A DNA stretch of 64,000 nt from Aporrectodea caliginosa (taxonomy: Eukaryota > Annelida > Clitellata > Crassiclitellata > Lumbricidae), in assembly GCA_020284085.1 (NCBI GenBank), contig JACEVL010000004.1, positions 259,501 to 323,500 of the forward strand, written 5' to 3'. Position numbers and translations under genes: made by a program. This document shows, piece by piece, positions 11,810-62,894 of the stretch (position 1 is the first letter of the stretch; each line of letters opens with the position of its first letter). A model generated the notes under the pieces. That model saw only the letters and a program-made list of their open reading frames with translations. It was not told the DNA's origin and searched no databases.

Positions 11810-12381
11810 TTAGGTGCGTTTGATCATCATTCGTGTCGCCATGCCTTCAGGATTCGACCCATAGCTGGCCAAATTGGCCAAGTAGGGTGGTTTCCCGTTC
11901 AGATCGGAGTCGCCGCAATTGGTATACCACCAGCCACTAGAGTAGCCGCGAGCACAGTGGTAGATATCATCATTTCTGTCGAACGTAACAAACCCTTTTC
12001 CGTTGAGATATTCTAGGGCGTTTCCGGAATCTCCGACGTACCCCAACACGTTAAAGGTGTAGTTCATGCTTTCCAAGCCCACTAAGAATGAGTCATACTC
12101 GGCCGAGAACCATTTTCCTTTGTCAACAGACTGGAATTCAATGCGCAGTTGATAGCTGGCGCTGGAGGTTAGCTGGTGGATCTTTTCCAGGCCAAGCCAA
12201 TGATTGCCGGAGATGTCGCCGAAACCGTTCTGGTACTGGATCCAGCTCCGGTTGAAGGAGTAGTCACCTGTGATGAGTCTCTGTTGAATTAGAATCCAGT
12301 TGTTGATAGACGACACAAGAGTTGGTTGAGAAAACGACGGAATCGTTAAGTTGATGTTGACGTAAGGATTCAAAAGATCAA
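11810..12381 (-). CDS. Locus 1 exon D: fibrinogen-related domain
   Basis: It opens in phase 1 after TTTTAG (acceptor at 12383-12382) and ends in a stop at 11810. The translation follows the FReD pattern: NNWILIQQR (for WTVIQRR), SFNRSWIQYQNGFG, HWLGLEKIHQLT, YQLRIEFQ, AEYDSFLVG, then FDRNDD and CARGYSSGWWYTNCGDSDL. This copy keeps the canonical C-terminal Cys pair, the GWWY motif and the acidic Ca2+-site region, unlike loci 2-4. The N-terminal FReD subdomain with its first Cys pair is missing in all four copies. It ends RMMIKRT, equivalent to the MKIRP end of classical FReDs. Confidence 0.88.
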
Positions 12382-60300: not shown

Positions 60301-62894
60301 TAATCTTCGTTTTATTTCAAACTGACACAATGCATTATGATTACAAATCAGTATGAACGGATGATCACAAGTTATTACAGGAGTCGAATTTAACGGCAGC
60401 CATGCAAGGCGCCCATCACGTCCTACATCTCATTTTTATCAACGCGCCATCTCGCGAATGATAGTCTGAGTAGACCTTTGGGAGGGTTCGGAAGCGATCC
60501 CGCTACCTACTGCTGTTCACGCCACTGATGTTACCACTACACTATGGACCCCCGTGTCGAGAGCGCTCCTGATTTGAGCGGTGCTATATAAAGTTCGATT
60601 ACATTACAACGAACCGCTTTTACTTGTTGGAGAATGGTGAAGAATAACAACAATAATGCTTCTATGCTGTGTTATACTATGTAACACAGCACTTAAACTA
60701 TGCTAAATCATACTGTACTATAGTATATATATATTATAAGTCTTAGTCTGTTTACGTTTTCCTTCTGTTTGTTTGTTTGTTTGTATGTTTGTTTGTCCGC
60801 ATCTAAAGGCTCCGAAACGAATAATACGCCTATTATAATTTACAGATAACCCGTGTAGTACGGGGAACAAATAATACGCCTATTTAAGGTAGAGATAACC
60901 CGTGTAGTACGGGGAACAAATAATATTGCCTATATATAAATTTGCTTTGCCCGTGCAGTACACGGGCAAAGCAACAATGTTCACCTCTAAATATCGTTTC
61001 CATTCAGATATATGGACATTTTTAAATATTTGAAGCCCATCAGCAAATATAGTAAGTAAGTAGCCTTTATTTGCAGCCGTTAAAAATTACGCCTGGGGAA
61101 AACCCGGGCGAACGCCGGGTAAAAAAATGCTAGTACTATATACAAGTAACACTATGCTATAAGATACTATAATATACTACCGGTACGCTGTACGATACAA
61201 CACTATACTATGCTGTACTATACTATGGGAAATGTTTTGTCGCCCCAACCGAAGTGTATATGACACGGTCGCTACGCGGCACTCCAGCGCCGCCTACCGG
61301 CGTGTCTGGTACTCAGCCACTGCGCGGCACTCGAGCGCCGCCTACCGACGTGTCTGGTACTCGGCCGCTGAGCGGAACATGAGTGCCCCAAAAGACGTGC
61401 CTCCTCTATTAGGGAGCACGGGATGATAACAAATCGCCTTTGAAAAACTCGGATGAAAATATTGAAAACTAGTTGCAATGCTGCAACAGCTCTTCGACAA
61501 AATATAGTTCAACAGTGTGTATCGCGTCAGACCCGCATATTAAAACGCAAAGTAAAGATTCTACAGTGGTGGTCGTTTTCTTGCTGTTTAGAATGCCACT
61601 CTTATCTTGCCCCGGTTACCCCTACATATAATTTGTGCATATCATTCCATGTCATACTTCATCTCACGAAGTAGCTTCGTTTGTTATGTCGAATATGGTT
61701 TAAAATTATTTTCAAAGCTGTTTATGAATACAGGGATACCTGGAGAAAACTGTTCCTTGCCATTCACCTACGGTGGTCGTATGTACAACGGCTGCACCAA
61801 GAACCTGACTGTTGATGGCTGTAGTGGGTGTCTGGCTGGAAATCGAACCCTGACAGTCTGCCTGGGTAAGCTATTATCAGATCTTACCTAATGATCTCTA
61901 TCATAATCCGGTGCATCCGTATTTACAGTTTCTTACGAAGCGCTTGGTCCTTATCGGATGGATGATACCTCCTATTCGTCTCTGTGAGATTCAATCGCTT
62001 GTCTCGATCGGAAGTTGAAAATTTCATTCCGTTTTGATAGAAGATTCCAGAATCGTTCTTGTTGTTGAAGGCGTCGCCTGCATCTCCCACGTAACCTGAC
62101 AAGGTCGCTTTTGAGTTCGCTTTTGTTGTGTCTGAATTTCATATTATAAAATTTTGAAAGTTCATGACTGTTCCTTCAAAACTGAATCTCACAGAGACGA
62201 ATAGGAGGTATCATTTTCTTATTTTTCAGATAAATTTCGCTGAATATGATACAATAAACACATAATGTCATTTGATCCAGGAACGTATTCGGCTTCATTT
62301 GTCAGGGTCAACGTGACAATTCCGACCTTCGCCGTAGGAACGCCACTGATATCGATCAATAACTGGATCGTCATCCAGCAGAGGGTGGATGGAACTGTCA
62401 GTTTCGACAAATTCTGGACGAGTTTCAGCAACGGCTTTGGTAGCATCTCCAACAACTTCTGGCTTGGCCTTGAGAAGATGCACCAGCTGACAATCAACGC
62501 CCCCTACCGTCTACGAATAGAGATTCAATCGATGGTAGAGCGCAAGTGGTTTTCAGCTGAATACGATTCATTCTTCATAACATCCGCGTCGCTTGGCTAC
62601 GCTCTGAGCGTGTCAGGTTACGTGGGAGATGCAGGCGACGCCTTCAACAACAAGAACGATTCTGGAATCTTCTATCAAAACGGAATGAAATTTTCAACTT
62701 CCGATCGAGACAATACCCCGACCCGTTGTGGATGTGCCGTACAGTACCCGGGCGGATTCTGGCACAATGCTTGCTGTGACGCGTGTCTTAACAGCATATA
62801 CGGCAACGGTTTTTCCTGGGACTCTTTAATTTATCTGGGGCTGAGCGAATCGGCTGATCTTAAGACAAGTCGAATGATGATTAAACGTGTTTAG
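54027..62894 (+). CDS. Locus 4: secreted PAN/apple-like, FNII-like, fibrinogen-domain protein gene
   Basis: Alternative first exons 4a (54027-54332) and 4b (57085-57384), B 57619-57643, C 61734-61865, D 62281-62894. With 4b: 1071 nt, 356 residues; with 4a: 358 residues. Phases 0, 1, 1. Intron 2 holds LINE sequence including a long reverse-transcriptase ORF; intron 3 holds an inverted copy of part of exon D. 4a is close to locus 3 exon A, and 4b resembles 2b. Confidence 0.78.
54407..54673. repeat. Perfect palindrome, arms 133 bp, 1-bp centre
   Basis: 54407-54539 is the exact reverse complement of 54541-54673, centred on A54540. The left arm is the paralogue of locus 3 intron sequence at about 42545-42660; the right arm is its inverted copy. 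Confidence 0.95.
55243..55760 (-). pseudogene. Degraded coding fragment, uncharacterised invertebrate or transposon protein
   Basis: One minus-strand frame reads NQRSAYCFEDVQRTIAFITN then YSEDHALVLPGRVPGFR and a stop, then RVKIYKAYSSAMAKSESFKA. A frame change leads to an Arg/Ser-rich end (RRGRGPLNHGTRLRSSSSEN). The LVLPGR..GFR..SVKLLP pattern is one I associate with uncharacterised repetitive proteins in invertebrates. Stops and frameshifts make it a pseudogene. Confidence 0.45.
55890..56060 (+). mobile_element. LINE tail remnant
   Basis: CACCATCATCTGCCTCAGG ... CAGGCTTTCCAC parallels 13630-13690 in the LINE fragment of locus 1. Confidence 0.4.
56338..56438 (-). CDS. Candidate short first exon
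   Basis: ATG at 56438, then MSKNDYVLVLDPVVAAKK and GDGDEEKTKARDLR to a donor CTCAG|GTAACT. It lies 600 bp upstream of the pseudogene at 55760 on the same strand, whose first in-frame piece follows an acceptor-like ATTGCAG near 55743. Link and function uncertain. Confidence 0.3.
57085..57384 (+). CDS. Locus 4 exon 4b: signal peptide plus PAN/apple-like domain, b-type
   Basis: MVVYSLFLVTLCFSIGLVSS signal peptide. No Cys at domain position 1 (INVVDVLEFQLAEV); seven remain: SELCALDTPSYSLS, VLECALECQRSLYCENFNY, TCDIFFDRPTCYG, FCIHYQ. 300 nt, donor CAG|GTCATA, phase 0. Confidence 0.87.
57619..57643 (+). CDS. Locus 4 exon B: 25-nt microexon
   Basis: Acceptor CATTTTTAG, donor G|GTGAGT. Encodes TQADEPYT plus the first base of a Gly codon. 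Lies 235 bp after exon 4b. Confidence 0.78.
58040..58450 (+). mobile_element. LINE ORF2 C-terminal fragment
   Basis: ESILNAAALLRDSIPKFAHI, SGFIRDALHWLPIQQRVQLK, then SCLVGVAPSYMRSFC. Typical of the CR1/L2 group; the homologous motif RDVLHWLP is also recognisable at 37500. Confidence 0.75.
58470..58560. repeat. (AAT)n microsatellite
   Basis: About 90 bp of ATA repeats separating the two LINE pieces. Confidence 0.97.
58561..60204 (+). mobile_element. 5'-truncated non-LTR retrotransposon ORF: reverse transcriptase to PD-(D/E)XK-like end
   Basis: The frame is open from IYAFTHQAYSS at 58561 through a stop at 60204 (about 547 codons). It contains GPQQADSLGPLLFCLPLQ (motif usually GVQQGDPLGPLLF), YLDDLSLGG (catalytic YxDD), then CQCGEIADPRGHHGLVC (CCHC-like finger) and RPDGATLVPWARGK...WDFT, which resembles a restriction-like endonuclease. 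It is GC-rich compared with its surroundings and uninterrupted, so the insertion is probably recent. The N-terminal half is missing; the truncation point is the microsatellite. Confidence 0.88.
60305..60600 (-). mobile_element. tRNA-derived SINE
   Basis: The minus strand begins near 60555 with GGGGGTCCATAGTGTAGTGG (A-box-like) and continues to a GAAATAAAACGAAG tail plus (ATT)n at 60280-60303. The GAGCGCTCC ... GCTATATAAAG module at 60560-60600 is the tail of an adjacent element. Confidence 0.6.
60842..61120 (+). repeat. Short repeats with CCCGTGTAGTACGGGG and a hairpin
   Basis: CCCGTGTAGTACGGGGAACA occurs at about 60851 and 60899. A 14-bp-arm hairpin (TTGCTTTGCCCGTG, 5-nt loop) lies at 60942-60974, and a related AACCCGGGCGAACGCCGGGT at 61086. 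Probably the 3' end of a mobile element. Confidence 0.6.
61734..61865 (+). CDS. Locus 4 exon C: FNII-like Cys module
   Basis: Acceptor GAATACAG, donor CTGG|GTAAGC; 132 nt, phase 1. IPGENCSLPFTYGGRMYNGC, NLTVDGCSGCLAGN, LTVCL. Differs from locus 3 at only a few residues. Confidence 0.85.
61962..62101 (+). repeat. Inverted copies of nearby intron and exon D sequence
   Basis: 61962-61993 is the exact reverse complement of 62183-62214, and 61999-62101 is the exact reverse complement of 62611-62713 inside exon D. Both copies are absent from the matching intron of locus 3. Confidence 0.95.
62281..62894 (+). CDS. Locus 4 exon D: fibrinogen-related domain
   Basis: Acceptor TTTGATCCAG, phase 1, stop at 62892-62894. 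ISINNWIVIQQRVDG, FWLGLEKMHQLT, YRLRIEIQ, AEYDSFFI, GYVGDAGDAFNN, FSTSDRDNT, then CGCAVQYPGGFWHNACC and DACLNSIYGNGF. Differences from locus 3 cluster in the N-terminal SFDKFWTSFSN segment and the C-terminal pocket loop, while the scaffold is nearly unchanged. Confidence 0.9.

Follow-up and report, generated by a model that had tools for sequence, protein, structure and literature searches.

The question raised by a 64,000-nucleotide stretch of the genome of the earthworm Aporrectodea caliginosa (assembly GCA_020284085.1, contig JACEVL010000004.1, positions 259,501 to 323,500 of the forward strand; hereafter the window, with positions counted from its first letter) is whether four clustered sets of exons, encoding a PAN/apple-like domain, a fibronectin type II (FN2)-like domain and a fibrinogen-related domain (FReD), are four genes of one family and, if so, what such a family might do. 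Exon-level tblastn over the window identified seven PAN, four FN2-like and four FReD exons, together with one inverted FReD fragment, and the exon edges showed a single plan common to all four loci: a putative signal peptide with the PAN domain, a 25-nt microexon, the FN2-like exon and the FReD exon. We consider that these loci probably belong to a germline-diversified repertoire of secreted FReD recognition proteins, similar to the fibrinogen-related proteins (FREPs) of other invertebrates, in which PAN and FN2-like domains would take the place of immunoglobulin (Ig) domains.

The PAN exons all end in phase 0 at a CAG|gt donor, the microexon runs from phase 0 to phase 1, the FN2-like exon begins and ends in phase 1 and the FReD exon starts in phase 1. 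As the PAN donor is in phase 0 and the FN2-like exon starts in phase 1, a linking exon of length 3n+1 is required between them. Joined in this manner, the four loci give frames of 341 (locus 1), 363 (locus 2), 360 (locus 3) and 356 or 358 (locus 4) codons, each with a single terminal stop, and the N-termini have a hydrophobic start that by eye resembles a signal peptide. The original prediction, made from the sequence of the window, of four loci with one exon order, shared phases and joined frames of 341–363 codons was therefore borne out. The exons are as follows:

11810..12381, minus strand: locus 1 FReD exon; phase 1 start, stop at 11810; Fibrinogen_C 2.2e-35
12607..12744, minus strand: locus 1 FN2-like exon; 138 nt, phase 1-1; fn2 2.2e-4, below cut-off
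14611..14635, minus strand: locus 1 microexon; 25 nt, LQIYQSLN then a split codon; C331 paralogue LQIYQPLN
15437..15727, minus strand: locus 1 PAN exon, proximal copy; PAN_1 8e-6
17945..18235, minus strand: locus 1 PAN exon, distal copy; same sequence as the proximal copy, within a tandem duplication of ~2.4 kb
23492..23797, plus strand: PAN exon 2a, orphan; PAN_1 3.9e-5; no microexon before PAN 2b
27386..27691, plus strand: locus 2 PAN exon 2b, likely first exon; DNA 97% identical to PAN of C331 gene d
28444..28468, plus strand: locus 2 microexon; 25 nt, AQSDQPNA|G
29389..29532, plus strand: locus 2 FN2-like exon; 144 nt; fn2 0.042, below cut-off
29915..30531, plus strand: locus 2 FReD exon; Fibrinogen_C 2.6e-43
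42163..42468, plus strand: locus 3 PAN exon; PAN_1 3.9e-5
43870..43894, plus strand: locus 3 microexon; 25 nt, IQEDQPYV|G
44182..44313, plus strand: locus 3 FN2-like exon; 132 nt; fn2 2e-4, just below cut-off
49101..49720, plus strand: locus 3 FReD exon; Fibrinogen_C 3.4e-46; AlphaFold model with FReD fold, pLDDT 87
54027..54332, plus strand: PAN exon 4a, orphan, locus-3 subfamily; DNA 90% identical to PAN 3
57085..57384, plus strand: locus 4 PAN exon 4b, likely first exon, C331-f subfamily; PAN_1 6.6e-5; groups with C331 f
57619..57643, plus strand: locus 4 microexon; 25 nt, TQADEPYT|G
61734..61865, plus strand: locus 4 FN2-like exon, locus-3 subfamily; 132 nt; fn2 3.7e-5, above cut-off; DNA 95% identical to locus 3
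62281..62894, plus strand: locus 4 FReD exon, locus-3 subfamily; Fibrinogen_C 3.6e-44; groups with g3/e/k

The microexon was sought in the window among stop-free AG..GT intervals of length 3n+1 (1–97 nt) between the nearest PAN and FN2 exons. The best-scoring donor belonged to the 25-nt microexon in all four loci. No candidate scored higher than this microexon in loci 2 and 3, whereas loci 1 and 4 each had a higher-scoring 19-nt variant that shared its donor. The split codon that follows the eight microexon residues specifies Glu in locus 1 and Gly in the others. When both strands of the 64 kb were scanned with the pattern, allowing up to three mismatches, exactly these four microexons were returned and nothing else. 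A model without the microexon, in which loci 3 and 4 would use an in-frame acceptor further upstream, was dropped: locus 1 offers no equivalent, and the microexon would be left unexplained.

Across the 1.10-Gb assembly (4544 contigs), an exact 32-nt microexon pattern that includes the splice sites had 54 matches and its reversed control had none; this exact pattern misses the microexon variants of window loci 1 and 4. Every one of the 54 matches had a listed PAN exon no more than 10 kb upstream on the same strand, and 53 had a listed FN2-like exon no more than 10 kb downstream on that strand, the sole match without a listed FN2 being gene m of contig C331, in which the FN2 exon is broken. No PAN and no FN2 exon was found on the wrong side within 2 kb of the 54 matches, and the opposite-strand neighbours within 10 kb numbered six PAN and four FN2. 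In the 12 complete loci of C331, the 25-nt microexon ranked first in ten and third in two when all AG..GT intervals of 1–69 nt were scored with no phase limit, and in one locus on contig C226, whose letters were read, the same microexon was in its place. The commonest form is AQSDQPYT-G, and the nine-residue linker is mostly encoded by the microexon. The 25-nt exon is thus a clean genome-wide marker of the family, in that a single DNA pattern finds dozens of members and its reversed control none.

These observations bear on whether the PAN and FReD exons might belong to separate neighbouring genes. In favour of such an arrangement are some introns that span several kb and the PAN exons that are far from any listed FReD (26 weaker matches, seven of them on contig C99). 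We nevertheless regard it as very improbable, since the 25-nt microexon is of the only length class (3n+1) that joins a phase-0 PAN donor to a phase-1 FN2 acceptor, and since the microexon and its splice sites are conserved and lie between PAN and FN2 in 53 of the 54 genome-wide matches. Support for the original single-gene reading extends well beyond the window, to the C331 loci, the genome-wide microexon and the ordered PAN-FN2-FReD counts given below. Together these are strong evidence for the exon plan and for the four exons forming one predicted gene, and genomic DNA by itself could hardly give stronger.

The family comprises dozens of clustered, germline-diversified copies in the genome, a size that is a lower bound. 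At least 155 Fibrinogen_C matches were obtained genome-wide from the best 150 of 1266 candidates, and of those listed, 148 were used, two C-terminal fragments (on contigs C131 and C608) being left out. In 132 of the 148 the profile match began at position 34–43, with the exceptions of C430 (2), C3383:5035 (16), C132:1694526 (64) and C146 (73), and we refer to these 132 as variant FReDs; in the remaining 16, the canonical FReDs, the match began at position 3–4. The FReDs were compared with 150 FN2 matches and 122 of 148 PAN matches, considering FN2 up to 8 kb and PAN up to 20 kb upstream with no listed FReD between. The other 26 PAN matches (E 5e-8 to 0.005) were dropped by hand: their contigs either had no listed FReD or had none within 0.5 Mb of the match, and the architecture counts are therefore unchanged. 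Among the listed variant FReDs, 72 had PAN and FN2 upstream in that order, 23 had FN2 only, ten had PAN only and 27 had neither. The FN2 exon within 8 kb upstream was on the same strand in 95 cases and on the opposite strand in one. The canonical FReD exons, six of which are on contig C453, had no listed PAN or FN2 upstream within these distances, and hence the ordered pair in none of 16.

The contig beyond the window carries further FReD exons of the same kind on both sides. Just past the downstream edge of the window, a fifth PAN sits in a long open frame that was set aside, as unread bases had created it. Contig C331 has, over a 140-kb stretch (717000–856999), 14 well-matched FReD loci and four partial matches, with PAN and FN2 in order at 12 of the 14. 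When the nearest AG of the right phase was taken as the FReD acceptor, the joined frames were open in ten of the 12 complete loci, and genes h, m and e are broken members of the family. The same stretch holds counterparts of window loci 1, 2 and 3 (FReD identity 92%, 95% and 88%), rearranged among genes that we term type A, and by eye it appears to be a segmental duplication rather than an allele.

The domain identities proposed in the original prediction were supported by profile searches to differing degrees. All four FReD exons matched Fibrinogen_C (Pfam; E 2e-35 to 3e-46 on single exons); PAN_1 was above its 21.4-bit cut-off in four of the six distinct PAN exons (1, 2a, 3 and 4b, with 2b and 4a below); and fn2 was above cut-off in only one of four (locus 4). 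The FReD matches begin at position 39–41 of the 221-position profile, leaving the first ~40 positions unmatched, and there is no Cys in the first 27 residues of the four window exons, such that the usual N-terminal cysteine region is absent. The AlphaFold model of the FReD was confident (predicted local distance difference test, pLDDT, 87) and matched the ANGPTL, ficolin, tenascin and FIBCD1 domains in Foldseek, where all 50 best listed matches were fibrinogen-type domains; by sequence, the best match among solved structures was tenascin-R. Two loop aspartates (D141, D143) and two loop cysteines (C151, C164), which we take to be the Ca ligands and a disulfide, are nearly invariant in 20 aligned sequences, and an extra Cys, in a CxxxCLN pattern, is present in loci 3 and 4 and in the C331 type-A genes. 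The PAN exons have the core C-x3-C-x5-C-x2-F-x-Y-x6-C and a profile match to microneme protein 4 at 2e-5. The FN2 exons matched MMP-9 (1.4e-6) and fibronectin (2.7e-4) profiles, with only the first 15–27 of 42 fn2 positions matched. As these matches are partial and mostly below cut-off we use the label FN2-like. In six joined proteins PAN_1 was above cut-off in two and fn2 in none, with no fn2 match in two and no PAN_1 match in one at E<=0.01; at that threshold the only matches were to PAN, fn2 and Fibrinogen_C, with none to Ig or collagen, and no collagen-like stretch was visible in the joined frames.

The presence of two PAN exons in each of loci 1, 2 and 4 affects which exon is taken as the first. 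The second PAN exon of these loci had been missed in the original prediction, in which the distal ones, which are without a microexon of their own, had evidently been used, and PAN 2a and 4a open the spans given there for loci 2 and 4. In both of these loci the single microexon follows the proximal PAN. Furthermore, no PAN resembling 2a is present in C331 gene d, the counterpart of locus 2 (PAN 97% and FReD 95% identical), and on contig C2476 a PAN 95% identical to 4b is paired with an FN2 that shares 98% identity with the locus 4 exon, the only other listed PAN there preceding another FN2 and FReD. Our best models therefore use 2b and 4b as the better-supported first exons. In locus 1 a tandem duplication of ~2.4 kb (14.6–17.0 and 17.15–19.5 kb) takes in the PAN exon and begins within a few bases of the microexon; its halves are 99.3% identical (3 mismatches and 13 gap positions in 2370 columns), and the duplication is therefore recent.

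We think it likely that the extra PAN exons (2a, 4a and the second copy in locus 1) are unexpressed debris of tandem duplication and unequal exchange, as they are without their own microexon, the locus 1 copy is recent, a single PAN per gene is the rule and other broken members (C331 h, m and e) are known, although the frames and donors of the extra exons and, for 4a, the upstream sequence are intact. The extra exons might instead be used as alternative first exons, by which each FN2-FReD half could be given a choice of PAN: every extra PAN has an open frame, a hydrophobic start and a CAG|gt donor, the ~260–271 nt upstream of 4a and 4b resemble the corresponding sequences of C331 k (76%) and f (79%), and the ratio of nonsynonymous to synonymous substitution (dN/dS) of PAN 4a against g3 and k is 0.29–0.38. 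The retention of upstream sequence at 4a and 4b makes use as an alternative first exon possible. We consider this rather unlikely, however, given that more than one PAN was present in only nine of 82 PAN-bearing FReD loci listed, window loci 2 and 4 included, that on C331 a 2a-like PAN is missing from gene d and gene c carries one PAN only, and that C2476 has only a 4b-like PAN before its locus-4-like FN2.

Locus 4 is a chimera of two subfamilies. In the trees, PAN 4b grouped with C331 gene f (96/93) and PAN 4a with g3 and k (98/99), the bootstrap of the PAN tree not being fully settled, and FReD 4 joined g3, e and k (99/99). As PAN 4b is of the f type and FReD 4 of the g3/e/k type, locus 4 consists of an f-type PAN and microexon joined to a locus-3-type FN2 and FReD, and the pairing is repeated on C2476. 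Such a gene could arise by unequal exchange pairing the PAN and microexon half of one gene with the FN2 and FReD half of another; the modules meet at fixed phases 0, 1 and 1, and an exchange of halves would therefore keep the frame. Locus 4 thus captures an exchange of modules between subfamilies, and it raises the question of exon shuffling versus alternative first exons versus duplication alone. That the cluster is a modular system, in which exchanged halves together with a choice of PAN by splicing yield a combinatorial receptor repertoire, is a speculation that we regard as unlikely; if true, an annelid would have a combinatorial receptor repertoire.

Two other features were observed in the introns of locus 4. 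Part of the locus 4 FReD exon (62606–62713) recurs as a 108-nt inverted copy, 98% identical, at 61999–62106 in the intron just before that exon, and the locus 4 pre-mRNA could fold back at this site. The intron between the microexon and the FN2-like exon has a 547-codon open reading frame (ORF; 58561–60201, plus strand) with a weak reverse-transcriptase match (0.00072, below cut-off).

The exons are under coding constraint: the pooled ratio of nonsynonymous to synonymous differences per site (pN/pS) was 0.22–0.60 in 11 of 12 exon groups, the locus-3 group including the broken gene e, and 1.12 in the twelfth, the FN2 exons of g1/c, which offer few sites. In the FReD loop of the seven C331 type-A genes pN was 0.204, versus 0.120 elsewhere in the domain, and 22 of 2000 random column sets reached 0.204. 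This pattern points to relaxed or diversifying change in the ligand-side loop of the FReD, short of proof of positive selection, a candidate explanation that was set aside because the pN/pS of the loop was 0.65.

The combination of domains was described as unfamiliar in the original prediction, and for the full trio this held in the literature searched: no paper found by our searches, which excluded subscription papers, supplements and figures, described PAN, FN2 and FReD together in the text available. The pairing of PAN/Apple with a fibrinogen domain is known in molluscs; according to PMC7588048, a Biomphalaria FREP (Bg179) has IgSF and FBG domains with PAN/Apple, and PAN/Apple is present in some Lottia FReDs and in four oyster genes. 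The gutless oligochaete Olavius algarvensis has 27 FREP unigenes (161 contigs) that are expressed, most with several predicted isoforms (PMC5117596), FREPs are named for Eisenia and Enchytraeus (PMC8460440) and expanded FREPs are reported for a sea anemone (PMC12549020), while passages from a rotifer and a tubeworm paper (PMC8878817, PMC8476170) had nothing bearing on the architecture. Full-length and alignment searches of protein collections identified 59 and 333 proteins, respectively; the listed ones (all 59 and the best 120 of the 333) all had Fibrinogen_C, none of them had a PAN or fn2 annotation, and one fish relative additionally had the fibrinogen coiled-coil family. No relatives were found in viral and prokaryote contig collections.

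The earthworm family resembles gastropod FREPs in being a large FReD family with the FReD C-terminal, PAN/Apple occurring in a few of the gastropod proteins (PMC7588048). The strict gastropod type has one or two N-terminal Ig domains, whereas the earthworm family has no Ig and instead has an FN2-like domain and a 25-nt linker exon. It shares with ficolins, tachylectin-5A and FIBCD1 the FReD fold (by sequence and model) and the loop aspartates and cysteines, and differs from them in the lack of a collagen match, the unmatched FReD start, a replaced His and the extra Cys. The Olavius FREPs are likewise annelid, many and diverse, and are described in text that gives no domain architecture (PMC5117596). 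The FN2-like module has the N-terminal half, CxLPFxYxGxxYxxC, of the fibronectin and MMP FN2, but the match ends at position 15–27 of 42 and the module has five conserved Cys. The canonical FN2 module has four Cys. Finally, the PAN core is that of HGF, plasminogen and microneme PAN/apple domains, whereas the earthworm chain has a single PAN followed by FN2-like and FReD domains. The PAN+FN2+FReD architecture is thus new within FReD recognition families, the FReD family type itself being known. With it, a large FReD family of distinct architecture becomes known from annelids, whose FREPs are named in the literature with no gene structure in the text found.

A complete gene of four coding exons would produce a predicted secreted protein of ~340–365 residues. 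In such a protein, the FReD may bind a ligand, probably microbial glycans, through its Ca-side loop, and the PAN and FN2-like domains may contribute adhesion or multimerisation; copy number and loop divergence would then give breadth, as in FREP-type innate recognition. By analogy, a role in innate recognition is plausible because the family is large and clustered, has the FReD fold and a changing loop, and FREPs are expressed in another oligochaete. The suggestion of allorecognition, also made in the original prediction, found no support.

Several observations weigh against a recognition repertoire of this architecture. Listed FN2, PAN or both were missing from 60 of the 132 listed variant FReDs, in part because only the best 150 candidates were scored (locus 1 itself is not among the listed FReDs), and an exact microexon match lay between PAN and FN2 in only 40 of the 72 complete loci. 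A PAN-FN2 protein query had none of 266 candidates at E<=1, in a search that depends on shared exact words, and the AlphaFold model of the PAN domain was of low confidence (pLDDT 47). The pN/pS of the FReD loop, versus 0.49 elsewhere, is not above 1, and its pN ranked only 14 of 171 contiguous windows. Both loop cysteines are absent in locus 2 and its C331 relative. The residue replaced in this family is the His that follows the second loop cysteine in tenascin-R; in ficolins and FIBCD1 this His presumably contributes to the acetyl pocket, and known ligand specificities may therefore not carry over.

An alternative is that these are matrix, adhesive, mucus or developmental proteins with no part in microbe recognition. 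PAN, FN2 and FReD are all known from matrix, protease and adhesion proteins, and, as noted above, tenascin-R was the closest solved structure by sequence. We find this alternative doubtful, as a cluster of dozens of diverging copies would be more usual for a recognition or secretion repertoire, and in another oligochaete the FREPs are placed with the host-microbe proteins (PMC5117596). A germline-diversified recognition repertoire is thus the reading we prefer.

Other features were noted in the window and the wider genome. An ORF with a CARD domain (PF00619, 1.2e-8) is upstream of the lectin cluster at 3359–3712 (plus strand). Two long ORFs, at 7935–8810 (plus strand) and 33749–34642 (minus strand), look related by eye; the former shows a single weak match to the NHL repeat (0.0043, below cut-off) and the latter no Pfam match. 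The assembly also bears the marks of an annelid. By eye, COX1 of the mitochondrial contig gives the expected Lys, Ser and Met at conserved positions only under the invertebrate code (table 5), and the annelid erythrocruorin-linker family has seven matches against none in 14 control genomes, those named being prokaryotes. A sponge or ascidian origin, first considered because of metagenomic FReD relatives, was rejected on these grounds, and the COX1 and the 1.1-Gb size would suit a clitellate worm. Elsewhere in the assembly, a COX1 match inside a large contig (C70:3435453–3436790) scored equally to that on the small contig C4544, and represents either a mitochondrial segment recently copied into the nucleus or a join made in assembly.

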